60,080 nucleotides of DNA, from contig NZ_AOIS01000013.1 of assembly GCF_000337495.1 (NCBI RefSeq), positions 88,704-148,783 of the forward strand, in the 5' to 3' direction. Both the position numbers and the translations under genes were made by a program. The DNA is from Haloterrigena salina JCM 13891 (lineage in GTDB: Archaea > Halobacteriota > Halobacteria > Halobacteriales > Natrialbaceae). Every line of letters starts with the position of its first letter. Position 1 is the stretch's first letter. Shown piece by piece: positions 19,842 to 29,308 of this stretch. The notes beneath the pieces were generated by a model. It did not search any database, was not told the origin of the DNA, and worked only from the letters and a program-made list of their open reading frames with translations.

Positions 19842-22451
19842 CTAGCGTCGCAGCCGACCGAGCAGTTCGTAGTCGCGGTCCGGCGTGTACCGCCGGAACA
19901 GCAGGCTGTTCGAGAGCACGGACACCGACGACAGCGCCATCGCGCCGGCCGCGAGCACGGGCTGGAGCAGCCCGAGCGAAGCCAGCGGGATCATCGCGGT
20001 GTTGTACCCCAGCGCCCAGACGAGGTTCTGCTTGATCTTCGCCAGCGTGGCCTCCGAGATCCGGATCGCCTTCACCACGTCGAGCGGGTCGTCGCGCATT
20101 AGCGTCACGTCCGCGGCCTCGATGGCCACGTCCGTGCCGGAGCCGATAGCGGTGCCGACGTGGGCGACCGCCAGCGCGGGCGCGTCGTTGACGCCGTCGC
20201 CGACCATCATCGCCTTGCGACCCGTCGATTGGACGTCCTCGAGGGCGTCGGCCTTGTCCTCGGGCAACACGCCGGCGCGGACGTCGTCGGGGTCGATGCC
20301 AACCCGCTCGGCGACCGCGCGGGCCGTCCGCTCGTTGTCGCCGGTGATCAGCATGACGTCCAGTCCGCGCTCGCGCAGGTCGGCGACCGCGTCGGCCGAG
20401 CTCTCTTTCACCGTGTCGGCGTCGGCCACCACGCCCGCGACCGCGCCGTCGACCGCGACCAGCATGGCGGTCTTGCCCTCGCGCTCGAGGCGTTCCATCT
20501 CGTCGGCGGCGGGCGCGGGATCGACGCCGTCGCCCTCGAGCAGCCGCCGGTTTCCGACCAGCACCTCGCGGCCGTCGACGGTCGCCCGGACGCCCTGTCC
20601 GGGGACGTTCTCGAAGGAGTCGGGAGCGGAGAGGTCGAGGCCGCGCTCCGCGGCGCCCTCGACGATGGCCTGGGCGAGCGGGTGTTCGCTGTCGCGCTCG
20701 GCGCTGGCGGCCAGTCGGAGCACCTCGCTCTCGTCGAGTTGCGATCGAGTCGCCACCGCGCCACCGTCTGCGGCCGCGTCACCGCCGTCGGCGGCCGCTC
20801 GAGCGCCTTCTCCCTCGTCCTCGAGCGCGACCACGTCGGTCAGCGTCATCTCGCCGGTCGTCAGCGTCCCGGTCTTGTCGAAGACGACGGTGTCGACGTC
20901 CTTCGCGCGCTCTAAGACGTCACCGCCCTTGAACAGGACGCCGTTCTGGGCACCCAGCGTGGAGCCGACCATCGTCGCGGCGGGCGTCGCCAGCCCGAGC
21001 GCGCAGGGACAGGCGATCAGCACCGCGGAGGCGAAGACGACGACGGCGAACTCGAACGTCGAGAGGGCGGCCGGGCCGCCGCCGACCAGCCCCAGCACGG
21101 GCACCGCGTCCACGACGCTCGCGAGCGCCTCGGGGAAGAGGAACCAGACCAGCCCCCAGACGGTCGCGTTGAGGATGACCGCGGGGACGAAGTACGCCGA
21201 GATGCGGTCGGCGAGGTTCTGGATCTCGGGCTGGCGCGACTGGGCCTCCTTGACGGTCTGGACGATTCCCTGAAGCGCCGTGTCCTCGCCGACCTTGGTC
21301 GCCTCGACGACCAGCACGCCGTTCTCGTTGATCGTCGAGCCGATCACCTCGTCGCCCTCGTCCTTCTCGACCGGCACAGACTCGCCGGTGACCATCGACT
21401 CGTCGACCGCCGACTGGCCGTCCACGACGACGCCGTCGGTCGGCACCTTCTCGCCCGGACGGACCTTCATCCGGTCGCCGACCGCGACGTCCTCGAGTGG
21501 CACCTCCCGCTCGTCGCCCTCGTCGTCGACCAGCGTGGCCGTCTCGGCCTCCATCTCGAGGAGTTTCCGCAGGGCCTCGCCGGCCTGGCCCTTCGAGCGG
21601 GCCTCGAGGTAGTTGCCCAGCGTGATGAACACGAGGATCATCGCAGCGGTGTCGAAGTAGAGATTGCCCGCCAGCAGGCCCAGCAGGACCACGAGGCTGT
21701 AGAGGTACGCCGTCGAGGACCCCAGCGCGATCAGCACGTCCATGTTGGCGGTCCGGTTCCTCGCGAGCGCGGTGTAGGAGTTCTCGAGGAACTCCCGTCC
21801 GAGCAGGACGTAGACCGGCGTCGCGAGCAGGAACTCGACCCAGCCGAACGAGACGCCGAGGACCGTCTCGGGCAGAATCGCCCCGTCGAGCAGGAGCCGA
21901 TCGGCCATGAACAACAGGAACGGGGCCGACAGCACGGCGCCGAAGATCGTCAACCGGCGCTGTTTGCGGATCTCGGCTTGGCGGGCTGCGTCGCGACGGT
22001 CCCGATCCGACTCGTCGCTCCCGTCCGCATCGTCGCGAACGGGCGTGTATCCGGCGTCCTCGATCGCCGCGTAGAGGTCCCCGAACGAGGCGTCGGCGGG
22101 ATTGTACGCGACGGAGGCCTCGTCGGTCGCGTAGTTGACCTCCGCGTCGATGACGCCGGGGACGGACTCGAGCGCCGACTCGTTCGTTTCGGCGCAGTTC
22201 GCACAGGACATGTCCGTGATCCCGATCGACCGACTCGTGCGGTCGGCCTCGTAGCCGGCCTCGTCGATCGCCGCGTAAATCTCGGCGAGCGAGACGGCGT
22301 CGGGGTCGTACTCGACGGTGCCTTCATCGGTGGCGAAGTTGATGGTCGCCTCGCTGACGCCGTCTTTGGACTCCAGGGCATCGCTGATCGTCTGCGAACA
22401 GTTCGCACAGCTCATGCCCCGGATATCCAGGTGTGCGGTCCGGGTGCTCAT
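19842..22451 (-). CDS. copA: Copper-translocating P1B-type ATPase (CopA)
   Basis: This 869-residue Cu(I) exporter has two N-terminal heavy-metal domains, GMSCANC near residue 13 and DMSCANC near residue 80. The other P1B-1 signatures follow: TGES, the intramembrane CPC at 481-483, DKTGTLT with phosphorylated Asp525, and [10 protein letters not shown] near the C-terminus. An Ala/Asp-rich insertion lies after the phosphorylation site. The gene is preceded by a TRASH-domain regulator on the same strand. Its promoter gap of 84 bases contains a 13-base palindrome. It forms the core of a copper-handling group with the divergent CopZ-like gene at 23253. Confidence 0.93.
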
Positions 22452-22492
22452 TACTAGCTACTACGCGGTGGTGACTTACCCCCTTTATTGGT

Positions 22493-22500
22493 TCGAACGC
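22493..22500 (-). promoter_or_regulatory. TATA-like box of copA
   Basis: On the minus strand CAATAAAG lies about 45 bases before the copA ATG, implying a short leader. It sits between the palindrome at 22522 and the gene. Confidence 0.35.
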
Positions 22501-22521
22501 AAAGTTTCGGGCCGCGGTTTC

Positions 22522-22534
22522 TTTCGAGTCGAAA
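22522..22534. promoter_or_regulatory. Perfect 13-base palindrome upstream of copA (candidate operator)
   Basis: TTTCGAGTCGAAA is a perfect dyad around a central base, located about 25 bases upstream of the copA TATA-like box and just past the stop of the TRASH regulator. A dimeric Lrp-type regulator would be expected to bind such a site. The related half site GTTTCG recurs at about 22504. Binding is inferred only from position and symmetry. Confidence 0.4.
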
Positions 22535-22535
22535 C

Positions 22536-23126
22536 TCAGACGCCTTCCTCGAGCCGATCGTATCGGCCTTCGAACCGGCTCGAGCAGGACGGACAACAGA
22601 AGTGGTACACCTCGCCGTCGATCCGCGTCGATTCTCCCTCGCTGTCGACGGTGTTCCCACACTCCGCGCAGGTGAGCGCGAACTGCGTCCCCTCGAGCGA
22701 GGGCGTCCACTCGGCGTCGTCCAGCAGCGTCACGTCGTACTCGCAGTCCGCCCCGTCGGGGAGCAGTCCCTCGAGCCACTCGCGGACGCGCTGGACTTGC
22801 GCGCGGGCGTAGAACCAGATCTCGCCGTCGGCGGTGACGAACACGTGCTCGACGGCGTCGGCCTCGGCGGCCGCCGTCCGGCAGTCCTCGACCGTGCCTG
22901 CGGGAGCGGTCACCTGCACGAACACCGGAACGCCAGCACGAAGCTGGGACTGGTCCACGTCGAGGGTGAACCGGTTGATGATTCCGGCCTCCTCGAGGCG
23001 CCGGACGCGGTCCGAAACCGCGGGCCCGGAGAGGTCGACTTCGTCGGCGATCTCGCTGAACGGCCGCCGGGCGTTCTCGCCCAGCAGCCGCAGGATTTCC
23101 ATGTCGGTCTCGTCGAGGTCGCGCAT
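22536..23126 (-). CDS. Lrp/AsnC-type regulator with C-terminal TRASH metal-binding domain
   Basis: This 196-residue protein has an N-terminal winged helix typical of Lrp/AsnC (MRDLDETDMEILRLL...LSGPAVSDRVRRLEEAGII). A middle ligand/dimer domain follows. The C-terminal TRASH motif has cysteines CAECGN...FCCPSC at about residues 155-185. In Halobacterium the Lrp-TRASH protein next to the copper ATPase controls its copper-induced expression, and the same arrangement is seen here. Start 23126 is used because the longer frame adds 33 Arg-rich residues. It probably regulates copA and the divergent CopZ-like gene. Confidence 0.88.
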   Translation of the reverse strand: MRDLDETDMEILRLLGENARRPFSEIADEVDLSGPAVSDRVRRLEEAGIINRFTLDVDQSQLRAGVPVFVQVTAPAGTVEDCRTAAAEADAVEHVFVTADGEIWFYARAQVQRVREWLEGLLPDGADCEYDVTLLDDAEWTPSLEGTQFALTCAECGNTVDSEGESTRIDGEVYHFCCPSCSSRFEGRYDRLEEGV

Positions 23127-23252
23127 ACGCTTCGTTCGGACCGGCCGCCAAAGAGAGTAGCGACGGTGGCTTTGGAATCCGAAGTCAGATCCGTCGACGC
23201 GCTGGCATCGAAAGGAGTAACGCACAAAGACCAGGCGTCCCTATACCCTCTT

Positions 23253-23450
23253 ATGAGTCAGACGATCACCGTCGAAGGGATGTCCTGCGAACACTGCGAA
23301 CAGACCGTCGAAGACGTGCTCGAGGGCGTCTCGGGCGTCGAGTCGGTCGACGTCGACCGCGAAGCAGAGCAAGCCACCGTCGACGGAGACGCGGACCCGC
23401 AGGCGCTCGTCAAGGCGGTCGACGAGGCCGGCTACGACGCGAGCGCGTAG
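23253..23450 (+). CDS. Heavy-metal-associated copper chaperone, CopZ-like
   Basis: This 65-residue protein is a single ferredoxin-like HMA domain. The metal-binding loop is GMSCEHCEQTV with Cys12 and Cys15, and the usual pattern ends in VDEAGYDA. It would bind Cu(I) in the cytoplasm and hand it to CopA. It is divergent from the TRASH regulator, with 126 bases between starts, so both may respond to one regulator. CTATACC lies near 23241, close to the start. The length is exactly typical for CopZ-type chaperones. Confidence 0.9.
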   Translation: MSQTITVEGMSCEHCEQTVEDVLEGVSGVESVDVDREAEQATVDGDADPQALVKAVDEAGYDASA

Positions 23451-23496
23451 TCCCGATCAGCGCCCGACTCCCGATTTTCCGTGCAGTCCGTTCGGC

Positions 23497-24393
23497 TCAC
23501 CCGAGATCCGCGTCTTCGAACAGCCGGTAGCCCGCGAGGACGGGGACGAGCCCCCACGCGAGCAATACGACCACCGAGAACCAGTCCGCGAGGTAGAACG
23601 GCACCTCGCCCGCGAGCCGGTTCGAGAGCTCGAGTGTCTCGGCGGGCGCGTTCGCGGGAACGTCTTCCAGCGGAAACTCGGGAACCGCGTCCACCCGCTC
23701 GTCGAGAACCGCGCCGGCGACGACGCGGTAGGCCTCGAGCGGATTGAGTCGCTTCAGGAGGAAGTACCAGGATTCGGCCCGAACCCCCGGTAGCGAGCCG
23801 GTAACCGCGTAGTAGATCCCGACGACGACCGGTTTCCAGAAGAACACCATACCCACGAACGAGCCGATGGTGAGCGTCCGCGCCCGTCCCCGAGTCGACG
23901 CGGCGGCCGATCCGCCGACCGCGAGGGCCGTGAACGTCAGCCCGAGCAGGACGCCGACCGCCACGAACCCGACGAACGTCGCCGCGTCGGGGACGCCGTA
24001 CAGGGCCACGACAAGGACGCTGGCCGCGGCGAACCCGATCGTCAGCGCCGTGCCGGTGACGAGCAGCCGGCCGGCGAATTTGCCGGCGACCACCTCGCCC
24101 CGCGAGAACGGATAGCTCAGCAGCACCCGCAGGCTCCCGGAGCGGCGTTCGCCGACCACGGCCGTGTAGCCGACGGCCAGCGCGATGCCCGGGACGAACA
24201 GTTGTGCGAGCATCGCGACGCCCGACAGCGCCATCGCGGCATCGACGGTCACGGGCTCCGGGAAGAGCTGTTCGGCCGAGAGCAGCGACATCGTCAGGAA
24301 GGCGACGAAGACGGCGGTGAGCCCCCAGAGCAGTCGCGAGCGGACGGCGTCCTCGAAGTCCTTGCGGGCGACGTCCCGCCAGGAGACCGTCAC
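23497..24393 (-). CDS. ABC-2 type transporter permease (NosY-like)
   Basis: This 298-residue membrane protein has about six helices and the ABC-2 permease pattern. ERRSGSLRVLLSYPFSRGEVV (about residue 82) is the cytoplasmic coupling segment that contacts the ATPase. The C-terminal third has a long extracytoplasmic loop (about residues 190-255) between the last helices, as in NosY-type exporters. It overlaps the upstream ATPase gene by four bases, so the two form one transport unit. The substrate is unknown. The position beside copper genes and similarity to NosFY permit a role in metal-protein assembly, but this is an inference. Confidence 0.85.
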   Translation of the reverse strand: MTVSWRDVARKDFEDAVRSRLLWGLTAVFVAFLTMSLLSAEQLFPEPVTVDAAMALSGVAMLAQLFVPGIALAVGYTAVVGERRSGSLRVLLSYPFSRGEVVAGKFAGRLLVTGTALTIGFAAASVLVVALYGVPDAATFVGFVAVGVLLGLTFTALAVGGSAAASTRGRARTLTIGSFVGMVFFWKPVVVGIYYAVTGSLPGVRAESWYFLLKRLNPLEAYRVVAGAVLDERVDAVPEFPLEDVPANAPAETLELSNRLAGEVPFYLADWFSVVVLLAWGLVPVLAGYRLFEDADLG

Positions 24394-25346
24394 GGAACCA
24401 CCTCCTCGACGGGAACGGAAGCCTCCGACTCCGTATTACCGACGCCGCCGTTCGTCGTGTACGCCGTGAACACGTCCTCGAGCGACGCGTCGTCGGAATC
24501 GACGTCGAGGATCTCGACACCGGCGGTCGTCAGCCGAGTCACGACCCGCGCTTTGGCGCGCGGATCCGAGCAGGCGACCCGGAGGAAGCCGTCCGCCGAC
24601 CGAACCAACTCGACGCCGTCGATCGCGGCGATATCGACGCCGGGATCCTCGGTCACGCGCAGGCGGAGCTCCGAGCCGGCGCCGACGGTCTTCCGCAGTC
24701 CCTCGACGGTGTCGACGGCGACGAGGGCGCCGTCCGCCAGGATCCCGACGCGGTCGCAGACCGCCTCGACCTGGCCGAGAATGTGACTCGAGAAGAACAC
24801 CGTCGTCCCGCGCTCGGCCTCCTCGCGAACCAGGTCTCGCATCCGGCGAATCCCGTGGGGGTCGAGCCCCGAGGAGGGCTCGTCCAGAACGAGCAGGTCG
24901 GGATCGCCGACCAGCGCCATCCCCAGCGCGAGCCGCTGTTGCATGCCTTTGGAGTAGTCGCCGACCGACCGCGCCGCGTCGCGGTCGTCCAGCCCGACGC
25001 GGTCCAGTATCGCGTCGGGATCGTCGGCCGCGTCCGTCCACTCGATCGCGAACTCGAGGTGACGGCGACCGGTCAGGCGATCGTAGAGGCCGATTCCGTC
25101 GGGCAGCACGCCGACGCGCTCGCGGAGCGCCTCCGAGTCCTCGCGGACGTCCATCCCGAGCACCGTCGCGGTCCCGTCGGTCGGGCGGACGTAGTCCAAC
25201 AGCATGTCGATGGTCGTCGACTTCCCGGCGCCGTTCGGTCCGAGGAAGCCGAACACCTCGCCCTCGCGGACGCGCAGGTCGAGCCCGTCGACGGCGACGA
25301 CGTCGCCGAAGCGTTTGGTCAGGTCGGTAGTTCGGATCGCAGTCAT
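24390..25346 (-). CDS. ABC transporter ATP-binding protein
   Basis: This 318-residue ATPase has all ABC motifs: Walker A GPNGAGKST near residue 40, signature YSKGMQQRLALG, Walker B LLVLDEPSSGLDP, and the switch His in FFSSHILG. The last 90 residues form the extra domain common to ABC-2 drug or membrane-protein exporters. The ATG at 25346 is chosen over a GTG three bases upstream. Its end overlaps the permease start by four bases, showing translational coupling. The divergent HTH_10 regulator starts 171 bases away and may control it. Confidence 0.88.
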   Translation of the reverse strand: MTAIRTTDLTKRFGDVVAVDGLDLRVREGEVFGFLGPNGAGKSTTIDMLLDYVRPTDGTATVLGMDVREDSEALRERVGVLPDGIGLYDRLTGRRHLEFAIEWTDAADDPDAILDRVGLDDRDAARSVGDYSKGMQQRLALGMALVGDPDLLVLDEPSSGLDPHGIRRMRDLVREEAERGTTVFFSSHILGQVEAVCDRVGILADGALVAVDTVEGLRKTVGAGSELRLRVTEDPGVDIAAIDGVELVRSADGFLRVACSDPRAKARVVTRLTTAGVEILDVDSDDASLEDVFTAYTTNGGVGNTESEASVPVEEVVP

Positions 25347-25486
25347 CACTCCGTCGTACCGGCCCGGACCGCATGGGCCGTGCTCCGAGTATACTGGGAC
25401 GGTTTATACGGGCTCGAGCGAGCGCTGCGAAGCGGACGACAACCGCCGAAACGGGTCCGGGCCAGGGTAGTGATCGGTGGACAACG

Positions 25487-25494
25487 CTTTACCC
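25487..25494 (+). promoter_or_regulatory. TATA-like box of the HTH_10 regulator
   Basis: GCTTTACC is centred about 27 bases before the ATG at 25517, the normal place for a leaderless haloarchaeal transcript. Confidence 0.35.
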
Positions 25495-25516
25495 AATTAT
25501 CGTGGTAGCAACAAAC

Positions 25517-26149
25517 ATGAGGGAGGCTCACGTGTCACTGTCCGATCCGGCGTTCGATCGGATGGGCATCGCGGAGCTCGTCTCACTGAGTCGCGACGCG
25601 GGGGTTCTGGGATTCGAAGAACTCGCGTGTCACGGGACCGGCGCCGTCGTCCAGGTCGCGGTCGAGACGCCGATCGACGAGGACCGGCTGTCCGACCTCG
25701 AGTGCGTCGACTGGTGGGAGCGGATCGCCGACTCGGGCGGCGATCACCGCTACGTGATCGCGTTTACCGCGCCGGAACTTCCCGAGGGGCTCGCCGAGCG
25801 GGCGGACGAGTTGATCGGGACCTGCGAACCGGACGTGACCGATCGGGGGGCCACCCTGTCGCTGGTGGGCTCGCAGGAGACGATCGCCGCGACCGTCGAC
25901 GAGTACGAGACCGCGGGAATTTCGCCGGAACTGCGGAGATTCGGGACCTACGACGGTCGCGACCATCCGCTGGCCGAGCTGACCGACCGCCAGCGCGAGG
26001 CGGTCCGGACCGCCCACGAGATGGGGTACTACGAGGTGCCGCGGACGGTGACGAGCGAGGACGTCGCCGCCGAACTCGAGGTCGATTCGTCGACGGTCGC
26101 CGAACTGCTCCAGCGAGCCGAGCGGAACCTGTTGGAACGGCACCTGTAA
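25517..26149 (+). CDS. Bat-type HTH_10 transcriptional regulator
   Basis: This 210-residue regulator ends in HTH_10: LTDRQREAVRTAHEMGYYEVPR, then SEDVAAELEVDSSTVAELLQRAERNLL. The N-terminal 155 residues form a ligand-sensing domain, as in DmsR/Bat-like one-component regulators of haloarchaea. The ATG at 25517 is favoured because a longer frame reads through promoter sequence. It is divergent from the ABC exporter and convergent with the MerB-like gene, so either may be its target. The metal-rich context hints at stress or metal sensing but is not proof. Confidence 0.8.
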   Translation: MREAHVSLSDPAFDRMGIAELVSLSRDAGVLGFEELACHGTGAVVQVAVETPIDEDRLSDLECVDWWERIADSGGDHRYVIAFTAPELPEGLAERADELIGTCEPDVTDRGATLSLVGSQETIAATVDEYETAGISPELRRFGTYDGRDHPLAELTDRQREAVRTAHEMGYYEVPRTVTSEDVAAELEVDSSTVAELLQRAERNLLERHL

Positions 26150-26189
26150 CGGCGGGCGACGAACCCGGCGTCGGTCGATCCCTGCTCGG

Positions 26190-26825
26190 TCAGGCCAGGA
26201 GCGCGGCCGCCAGGTCGGTGGCGCCCTCGAGGGGCATCGCGACGGTCGCCGCCGGGACGGCGTCGGCCCACCGGTCGTACGACTCGCGGTCCGGGAACGC
26301 CCTGACGAACGGACAGACTGCGGCGTAGACGTCCGCGTGCGACGGCTCGCCGTCCGACGGCGGCGAGACGGTTTCGTCGACGCCGAACGAGACCGCGGCC
26401 GTTTCGGGGACGACCGTCAGATCGGCGATCCCCGCGGCGCGCGCTTCGATTGCCGTCCCGGCCGGACTCTCGGTCCGAATCGCGACCGGTCGCTCCGCGA
26501 GCGCCGACAGCAACACCGCGTCGTAGAAACACCGGAAGTAGTACCGTTCGCCGTCGATCTCGCCCCAGTGGGCCGTCTCCTCGTCGGCGTGACACAGATC
26601 GTCGACCGCGATCGACCCGCCGGTTCGACGGCGGACCGCGGCGACCCACTCGGCTAGGGTCTCGATCGACCCCCCGCCGAGGAGCCGTCCCAGTCCCGCC
26701 TGGACGTCGCTCGGCAGCGGGGTCTCGAGCCGCTGCGAACCGCCGAGCCACCGGTCGGAGGCCGACTCGAGGTCGTTCGATCGACCTTCACACGAACTGC
26801 CGCAGGTACACGGATCGTCCGTCAT
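26190..26825 (-). CDS. MerB-like organomercurial (alkylmercury) lyase
   Basis: This 211-residue protein resembles MerB, which breaks carbon-mercury bonds by protonolysis and leaves Hg(II) bound. The catalytic set maps well: Cys99 and Asp102 in CFYDAVLLSAL match Cys96/Asp99 of plasmid R831b MerB, and Cys171 in AAVCPFVRAF matches Cys159. The N-terminal 15 residues carry an extra CTCGSSC cluster that could bind metal. No mercuric reductase (MerA) gene is in the window. Its neighbours are an HTH_10 regulator and the CopB-type ATPase. The fold assignment is strong; the substrate could be another organometal or the protein may have a non-mercury role. Confidence 0.75.
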   Translation of the reverse strand: MTDDPCTCGSSCEGRSNDLESASDRWLGGSQRLETPLPSDVQAGLGRLLGGGSIETLAEWVAAVRRRTGGSIAVDDLCHADEETAHWGEIDGERYYFRCFYDAVLLSALAERPVAIRTESPAGTAIEARAAGIADLTVVPETAAVSFGVDETVSPPSDGEPSHADVYAAVCPFVRAFPDRESYDRWADAVPAATVAMPLEGATDLAAALLA

Positions 26826-26935
26826 ACTGCCGTCTACGGCCGCCTGCGGCTATCAGCGTGACTCCCAACGTGCTGGGACCATTTACCCCGTCCGCGAGAA
26901 CGATTCGACGAAGTCGAAACGGACCGATCGCTCGC

Positions 26936-29308
26936 TCAGTCCGCCGGCCGGGGTTCCCGCGGCGCGGCAACGCCCGGCAGGCTCGGCACCGAGAGATCGG
27001 TCCGCCGGAGGAACTGCGCGTTGATCGCGACGATCACGGTGCTGAGCGACATGAGCAGCGCCCCGACGGCCGGCGAGAGCAGGATTCCGATCGGCGCGAG
27101 CACCCCCGCTGCCAGCGGGAGCGCGAAGACGTTGTAGCCCGCGGCCCAGACGAGGTTCTGTTGCATCTTTCGGTAGCTCGCCCGGCTCAGCTTGACGAGC
27201 CGAACCACGTCCATCGGGTTGTTCTGGACGAGGATGATGTCCGCCGACTGGACGGCGACGTCCGTCCCGCTCCCGATCGCGATCCCGATGTCGGCTCTGG
27301 TGAGCGCCGGCGCGTCGTTGACCCCGTCGCCGACCATCGCGACCGATTTCCCCTGCTCCTGGAGTTCCGTGATCTTCTCGTCCTTGTCCTCCGGTAACAC
27401 CTCGGCGAAAACCGTGTCGATCCCGAGGTCGTCCGCAACGGCGCGAGCCACGTCTTCGGAGTCTCCGGTCATCATCGCCACCTCGAGTCCCAACTCGTGG
27501 AGCGCGTCGACGACGCGGTAGCTCTGCTCGCGGACGACGTCGGCGAGCGCGAACGCAGCGACCGGCTCGCCCTCGCGGCTCGCGTGTCGCTTCGTTCCCG
27601 CTCGCACCTTCGAGGACTCACTGCGTTCGTCCTCGCGGACCAGATAAACCACCGTCTGCGCGTTCTCGCCGGCTCGATCGGCGAATCGCTCGAGCGCCGG
27701 CGGAACGCCGCCCTCGAGTTCCGAGAGGAGGTTCGGCCCGCCGACGTACACCCGTTCCCCGTCAACCGTCGCGCGGACGCCCCTCCCTTTCAGCGCCTCG
27801 AAATCGGTGGCGGTCCGCCTCGAGACGCCGCGGTCGTCGGCCGCCTCGCGGATCGCCTGGGCGATCATGTGTTCCGAGTCGCCCTCCACGGTGGCCGCCA
27901 GCGCGAGGGCCTCGTCCTCGGAAACGCCGTCGACTGTCGCGATATCAACCACGCCCTGTTCGCCCTCGGTGAGCGTCCCGGTCTTGTCGAAGACGACGGT
28001 GTCGAGGGTTCGAGCCCGTTCCATCGCGATGCGGTCCCGAACGAGCATCCCGTTGCGCGCGGCCAGCGAGGTGTTGATCGCGACCACCAGCGGGATCGCC
28101 AGCCCGAGCGCGTGCGGACAGGCGATGACGAGAACGGTGACGACCCGCTCGATCACCGCCGAATCGAAGCCGGTCGCGATCGTCCACGCGAGCGCCGTGA
28201 CGACGGCCGCGCCGAGGGCGACGTAGAACAGCCACCCCGCGGCGCGGTCGGCCAGCGCCTGCGTTCGCGATTTGCTCCCCTGGGCCTCCTCGACCAGCCG
28301 CATGATGCCGGCCAGCGTCGTCTCCTCGCCCGTCGCGCTGATGCGCACGCGGAGGCTGCCGTCGCCGTTGACCGTCCCGCCGATGACGTCGTCGCCGGGC
28401 TCCTTCTCGACCGGCGTCGACTCACCGGTGATCATCGACTCGTTGACGTCTGACTCGCCCGTCTCGACGACGCCGTCGGCGGGGACGCTCGCGCCCGGTC
28501 GGACGAGCACCAGGTCGCCCTCCTCGAGTTCGTTCGCCGGAACCTCCTCCGTTTCACCGGGCTGCGCCCGGTTGTCCGCGGGACGTGGTCCCGCGCTCTC
28601 ACCGTCGTCCGTAATCCGCTCGGCCGTGTCGGGCATCAGCTTCGCCAGTTCGTCCAGCGCGCTCGAGGCCCGCCGGACGCTGCGCATCTCGATCCAGTGG
28701 CCCAGCAGCATGATGTCGATCAGCGTCACCAGCTCCCAGAAGAAGGCCGCCTCGGTGGGAACGACGACGCTCGCGAGGCTGTAGACGAACGCGACGGTGA
28801 TCGCCATCGAGATGAGCGTCATCATCCCCGGCGCGCGCTCGCGCAGTTCCGGGACGGCCATCCGAAGGAAGGGGACGCCGCCGTAGGCGAAGACGATCAC
28901 CGCGAAGACGGGGCTGATCCACTCGCTGCCGGGGAACGCCGGCACCGAGAAGCCGAGCCACCCCTGAAGCGCCTCGCTGTAGAGCAGGACGGGAATCGAG
29001 AGCAGCGTCGAGACAAAGAATCGGCGCCGGAACATCGTCTCGTGGCCGGCGTGCATCCCGCCACCGTGATCGCCGTGACCACCACCGGAATGCATCCCGT
29101 CGCCGTGATCCTCGCCGTGGCGACCACGCTCGTGGCCGACGTGACCCCCGCGTTCCTGCCGATCGCGGATCTCGGCTCGCCCCCGCTCGGCGTCGTCGGC
29201 CTCGTCCTCGAGCAGCGACCGTTCGGTCCGGTCGGCCCGCTCGCCGTCGTCTCGAGCGGCATCGAACGGCTCCGGACCGTCCTCGGCTCGGTGATCGTGA
29301 TCGTCCAT
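26936..29308 (-). CDS. copB: CopB-type heavy-metal P1B ATPase with His-rich N-terminus
   Basis: This 790-residue ATPase lacks HMA domains. It has an N-terminal region (1-95) rich in His, Asp and Gly ([13 protein letters not shown]), a feature of the P1B-3 class. TGES, the intramembrane CPH at 397-399 (not CPC), DKTGTLT with Asp441, and [10 protein letters not shown] confirm the class. CPH-type pumps export Cu(I), Ag(I) or Cu(II). It belongs to the metal cluster, 110 bases upstream of the MerB-like gene on the same strand, so the two may be cotranscribed. The length is normal. Confidence 0.88.

Follow-up and report, generated by a model that had tools for sequence, protein, structure and literature searches.

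The stretch of DNA analysed here (the window, 60,080 nucleotides of a contig from Haloterrigena salina JCM 13891) holds a MerB-family gene, an HTH_10 regulator gene, the two genes of an ABC transporter and, on both sides of this group, genes of copper homeostasis (Table 1). The merB open reading frame begins with an ATG and ends with a stop codon within the interval listed.

Table 1. Features of the merB region, with positions in the window.
Feature	Position	Strand	Remarks
CopA with two HMA domains, Lrp-TRASH regulator, CopZ	19842..23450		Copper homeostasis locus hosting the cassette; kept where the cassette is absent
Four-gene cassette (merB, HTH_10, ABC ATPase, permease)	23453..26912		Missing as a block in G024
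ABC-2 type permease (PF12679)	23497..24393	(-)	
ABC transporter ATPase (DrrA-like)	24390..25349	(-)	
Putative operator of the ABC operon	25380..25407	(-)	TATAAACCGTCCCAGTATACTCGGAG, core 25383-25398; same element as that of merB; matrix score 24.1 bits
HTH_10 regulator	25517..26149	(+)	Convergent to merB; conserved Cys55/Cys120
MerB-family lyase, 211 aa	26190..26825	(-)	N-terminal Cys tail C6/C8/C12, invariant C78, triad C99/D102/C171
merB promoter and putative operator	26859..26886	(-)	TATA-like TAAA, then palindrome CCCAGCACGTTGGGAG, core 26862-26877; matrix score 31.0 bits
CopB-like copper P-type ATPase	26936..29308	(-)	Neighbour, outside the regulon

The 211-residue product matched the Pfam family PF03243 (MerB, alkylmercury lyase) with 59.8 bits (E 3.5e-16; gathering cut-off 27), and its gene is the only one of the MerB family in the 4.84-Mb assembly. 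The scores against the NCBIfam MerB equivalog models were below the respective cut-offs (35.2 versus 193 bits for NF009710 and 27.7 versus 200 bits for NF033555), which counts against the explanation favoured below; since the PF03243 cut-off was passed and those of the equivalog models were far off, we place the protein in the MerB family at large, outside the canonical equivalog. In an alignment of 18 sequences (R830b, Staphylococcus, Gordonia and other archaeal MerBs together with the window protein), only Met1, Pro36, Cys96, Asp99 and Cys159 (R830b numbering) were invariant in all 18, and the columns of the last three residues, the catalytic ones, are occupied in the window protein by Cys99, Asp102 and Cys171. 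These three residues and a fourth, Cys78, were unchanged in all 46 haloarchaeal homologues, which were collected through HMM and protein searches without the use of a motif, and whose identity to the window protein goes down to 39%. The original prediction, a MerB-like lyase with intact catalytic residues, is in this respect borne out. It overlooked that Cys78 is invariant, that the N-terminal CTCGSSC motif is itself variable among relatives and that Ser120 occupies the position of MerB Cys117, which PMC8261052 treats as a signature residue whose role is unclear. Ser, Ala or Thr stands there in 46 of 46 homologues, a further point against the favoured explanation. The haloarchaeal MerB-family proteins form one clade in the tree (support 100/99) and, judged from the alignments, this clade has lost Cys117 and gained the invariant Cys78.

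An AlphaFold model of the window protein, computed from 25 sequences (pLDDT 82, pTM 0.78; residues 1-21 disordered), was compared with known structures, as the original prediction had proposed. MerB chains were the top Foldseek and VIA-align matches, and the MerB crystal structures reached Z scores of 11-15, the best being 3F0O (Z 14.9, rmsd 2.6 over 144 residues), followed by NosL (Z 4.8). Judging from sequence and model together, the assignment of the gene product to the haloarchaeal MerB-type lyases is well supported as regards enzyme class; the literature searched contained no report of C-Hg protonolysis activity for any haloarchaeal member.

The protein shares PF03243, the fold and the equivalents of Cys96/Asp99/Cys159 with bacterial MerB (R831b/R830b type; PDB 3F0O, 3F2F), but it is only about 16-22% identical to it in structural alignments, has Ser in place of Cys117, an additional invariant Cys78 and a Cys-rich disordered N-terminal tail, lacks a MerA partner and is found in an HTH_10/operator setting instead of a mer operon. 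Among the closest described counterparts are the MerB-only genomes and the MerB-like '117alt' variants reported by Christakis et al. (2021; PMC8261052), in which the triad is kept, position 117 is altered and MerA is missing. Those variants are reported there from bacteria only and, as far as the available text goes, neither an operator nor a cassette, Cys78 or a thiol tail at the N-terminus is described for them. The same text lists a haloarchaeal MerB, that of Halobacterium sp. DL1, among the search queries. Genes of haloarchaea annotated in RefSeq as merB or 'organomercurial lyase' are members of this family too, with 38-59% identity in those plasmid records that were examined, as is the merB of Haloterrigena turkmenica (PMC3600143); in both cases there is an annotation only, to which neither a function nor a mode of regulation is attached. 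NosL, the copper chaperone of nos operons, has a related fold and differs in being an exported lipoprotein without the MerB triad; membership in the NosL family was rejected, given the Z score of 4.8 versus 14.9 for MerB and a window N-terminus (MTDDPCTCGSSC) in which no lipoprotein feature or hydrophobic export signal was found. Elsewhere in the tree, canonical-looking MerBs with Cys117 occur in other members of the phylum (L073, L074 and L075), on a branch separate from the haloarchaeal clade, and one genome carries a type-I merB that is frameshifted just past the first catalytic Cys (L072, G072:C3:2362217) and, in addition, an intact type-II copy (L070).

The extra CTCGSSC motif is indeed present, at residues 6-12. 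The exact pattern is not kept among relatives, which have CxCC, CxC, CC or none, and a few members (L052, L049, L076 and L108) have fewer tail cysteines or none, which counts against the favoured explanation. Two close relatives retain zero or one tail Cys. The tail was discarded as a universal trait. Nevertheless, 104 of the 1279 tail residues (8%) are Cys, versus 7 of 8562 (0.08%) in the body outside the three invariant cysteines, and this roughly hundredfold contrast in Cys-poor proteins suggests that the tail cysteines are under selection. Two thiols are needed to remove Hg(II) from MerB, a task that the Cys pair at the N-terminus of MerA performs in vivo (PMC4525700); a tail that accepts Hg(II) in cis would fit the absence of MerA. 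A canonical MerB encoded on a Staphylococcus aureus plasmid (L089, 2752-3399) ends in ...NGSCCNI, and this C-terminal Cys pair may be an analogue, at the opposite end, of the haloarchaeal thiol tail.

The description of the gene as an orphan, without merA, also holds: a profile search of the genome gave nothing above the TIGR02053 cut-off, and the two best MerA-like matches, considered as a hidden MerA, were rejected because they possess the redox Cys pair, lack the C-terminal Cys pair and score below the cut-off. No merR gene was found beside merB within the window, and a PF02411 search for MerT returned no match, as did its control search. Among 125 genomes of the family, MerB-family genes occur in 31, MerA in eight and both in one; this overlap is near the chance expectation (one observed, two expected, P = 0.36), so that MerB and MerA seem to be independent in these 125 genomes and an active avoidance between them is not significant. 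According to PMC8261052, MerB without MerA is already known from about half of the MerB-bearing genomes, and the field has yet to explain how such genomes survive the released Hg(II). Also noticed was a flavoprotein resembling dihydrolipoamide dehydrogenase (L033, G000:C36:55889-57325) that ends in a long tail of HGHDHSHG repeats; it may be a metal-linked reductase.

Haloarchaeal merB promoters fall into two classes, which track the MerB tree. In type I, to which the window belongs, TAAA is followed by CCCA-N6-TGGGAG about 50 nt 5' of the ATG. In the window protein's gene the conserved element stands about 35-52 nt 5' of the ATG, which supports the start codon. Type II promoters, those of the other half of the family, have the form ACTTCGGAC..GACAGTATAA..ACTTCG, with an HxlR regulator nearby in many loci; they were found in L053, L055, L063-L065, L067, L070, L085-L087, L106, L109 and L112-L114, some of which add DoxX, a GST-like domain and a bile-acid-type symporter. 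Beside the TATA boxes of both merB and the ABC exporter operon of the window we identified a palindromic element, about CCCAGYATAYTSGGAG, placed in both cases between the TATA box and the predicted transcription start; the copy at the ABC promoter was first noticed by reading the spacer between the HTH_10 and ABC genes. A weight matrix was then built from the merB promoters of 21 loci from other genera, the window's own clade being left out to avoid circularity. Scanning the window with this matrix gave 31.0 bits for merB, 24.1 bits for the ABC operon and 10.2 bits for the third site, and sites above 15 bits numbered 59 in 28 type-I loci (31 beyond those of merB itself) versus one in 32 similarly sized control loci. 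Most of the additional sites precede ABC ATPase and SAM methyltransferase genes, one above 15 bits precedes an HTH_10 gene, and lower-scoring HTH_10 sites are present in other loci. With at most one mismatch, a consensus pattern matched only the merB and ABC sites in the 4.84-Mb genome, a figure that is descriptive, since the pattern was written from known sites.

Type-I loci differ in their further content. A class I SAM-dependent methyltransferase gene with its own operator copy adjoins merB in several of them (L051, 7437; L059, 10351; L061, 10600; L066, 10337; L062, 9210; L084, 6626). Halegenticoccus soli (L096, 1600-8700) has an enlarged version of the regulon with at least six operator copies, located before merB, a second PF03243 gene and the genes of a PQQ-repeat lipoprotein, a small lipoprotein and a rhodanese-metallo-beta-lactamase protein, and also downstream of merB. 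In L049 and L057, merB with a type-I promoter is directly downstream of a gene identified by eye as a NorZ-type quinol nitric oxide reductase, and an ABC permease gene follows.

Type-I merB genes are typically accompanied by an HTH_10 gene in convergent orientation, and in many loci genes for the ABC ATPase and permease come after it. Cys55 and Cys120 of the HTH_10 protein (numbered from the codon at 25466) are invariant in all 28 merB-linked copies; Cys80 is found in 18 of 28 only, and with at most two conserved cysteines a three-Cys sensor of the MerR kind was discarded. The cysteines are partly retained in a paralogue that is not linked to merB (L147), which counts against the favoured explanation. 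The permease is devoid of cysteines, so that transport of Hg by it is not a necessary assumption, a further point against the favoured explanation. A link to defence systems was also considered and dropped, since the PADLOC matches were only to the generic ABC ATPase. In a genome of the same genus (G024), merB, the HTH_10 gene and both ABC genes are all missing and about 316 bp of other sequence stand in their place, while the copper locus is intact and the flanking sequences share 94% identity towards copB and 92% towards copZ. As far as the literature was searched, this operator-defined cassette is undescribed.

The original prediction took the adjoining copper pump as a partner of MerB and suggested that an exporter handles the released Hg(II). 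The first part must be abandoned: copB adjoins merB in only eight of 40 loci, and these eight belong without exception to the clade of the window; it has no copy of the shared operator in the matrix scan, a promoter belonging to merB separates the two genes, and copB is kept where merB is missing in the same genus (G024, where the site is empty, and G023, which lacks the cassette). That the pump lies next to merB is coincidental. The second part stands in a modified form, in that an exporter is perhaps implicated, namely the ABC transporter (23497-25349) that shares the operator of merB. CopZ and CopA could be receivers of Hg(II), although the regulatory evidence gives no sign of such a role.

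Based on the sequence evidence, the locus most likely serves to detoxify organomercurials by a route that needs neither MerA nor MerR, and we consider it probable that merB, the HTH_10 regulator and the ABC exporter constitute a dedicated detoxification cassette with the following mechanism. The HTH_10 protein would act as a repressor of merB and the ABC operon at sites immediately 3' of the TATA box, and the organomercurial, or a thiol adduct of it, would inactivate this Cys-bearing repressor, so that the CCCAGYATAYTSGGAG operators at both promoters are freed and repression is relieved by the thiophilic mercurial. The lyase would then cleave the C-Hg bond via Cys99, Asp102 and Cys171, as MerB does with Cys96, Asp99 and Cys159. 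Since there is no MerA, Hg(II) would have to be removed from the active site by thiols, and we infer that the likeliest built-in acceptor is the flexible N-terminal CxC(C) tail, possibly together with Cys78, in the manner of the MerA N-terminal Cys pair; Hg(II) would subsequently pass to cellular thiols or leave the cell via an exporter.

Three other explanations were weighed. The one that survives best keeps the MerB as described and has the operator bound by a regulator other than HTH_10, with an ABC transporter unrelated to mercury. Two genomes speak for it and count against the dedicated cassette: in G080 the operator is present with no close HTH_10 orthologue, and in G055 the HTH_10 gene, the ABC genes and the ABC operator persist where the adjacent merB is gone, another merB being located elsewhere in the genome. 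Against it, HTH_10 orthologues (at least 57% identity) occur in 18 genomes, and all 18 have merB (naive P 9e-14, with shared ancestry ignored), and operator copies are found upstream of the HTH_10 gene itself in L051, L059, L082, L083 and L084; we regard this arrangement as rather improbable.

Somewhat less probable still, and in our judgement unlikely, is a MerB-fold lyase that applies the same chemistry to a different natural substrate, an organometal or thiol-reactive electrophile such as an organotin or organoarsenical. The loss of Cys117 and the gain of an invariant Cys78 are in line with it, as are the co-regulated SAM methyltransferase of several type-I loci, the presence of an ABC exporter instead of MerA/MerT and the occurrence of type II/III copies beside HxlR regulators, some of them beside DoxX and a bile-acid/arsenite-type symporter; however, the complete Cys-Asp-Cys triad, the defining feature of C-Hg cleavage, never varies, and there is no consistent linkage to a gene specific to another metalloid. 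Finally, a copper-handling protein (a NosL-like chaperone or a copper sensor) serving the adjoining CopA/CopB/CopZ locus is very improbable, for although merB sits between copper genes, NosL is the second structural match and of common fold origin with MerB (PMC4999995), and a D99S MerB variant binds Cu according to PMC8261052, the window protein retains Asp102 instead of Ser, matches MerB far better than NosL and has no lipoprotein or export signal, and the copper genes show the limited synteny with merB, lack of operator and persistence without merB described above.

Returning to the dedicated detoxification cassette, what is new here is a regulon composed of merB and an ABC exporter operon, with the HTH_10 gene between them. 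We tentatively suggest, as a possibility to be held with some reserve, that it represents a response particular to haloarchaea and independent of MerA and MerR, in which a two-Cys HTH_10 protein senses mercurials at CCCAGYATAYTSGGAG and controls a thiol-tailed MerB and an ABC exporter, joined in some lineages by a SAM methyltransferase, and in which Hg(II) is unloaded onto MerB's own CxC(C) tail. The tempting interpretation of the copper pump as a partner is corrected and, with an operator, a candidate sensor, an exporter and a thiol-tailed enzyme, the cassette offers a concrete archaeal candidate answer to how Hg(II) can be survived without MerA. Should the activity be confirmed, the known reach of methylmercury degradation would widen to hypersaline sites.
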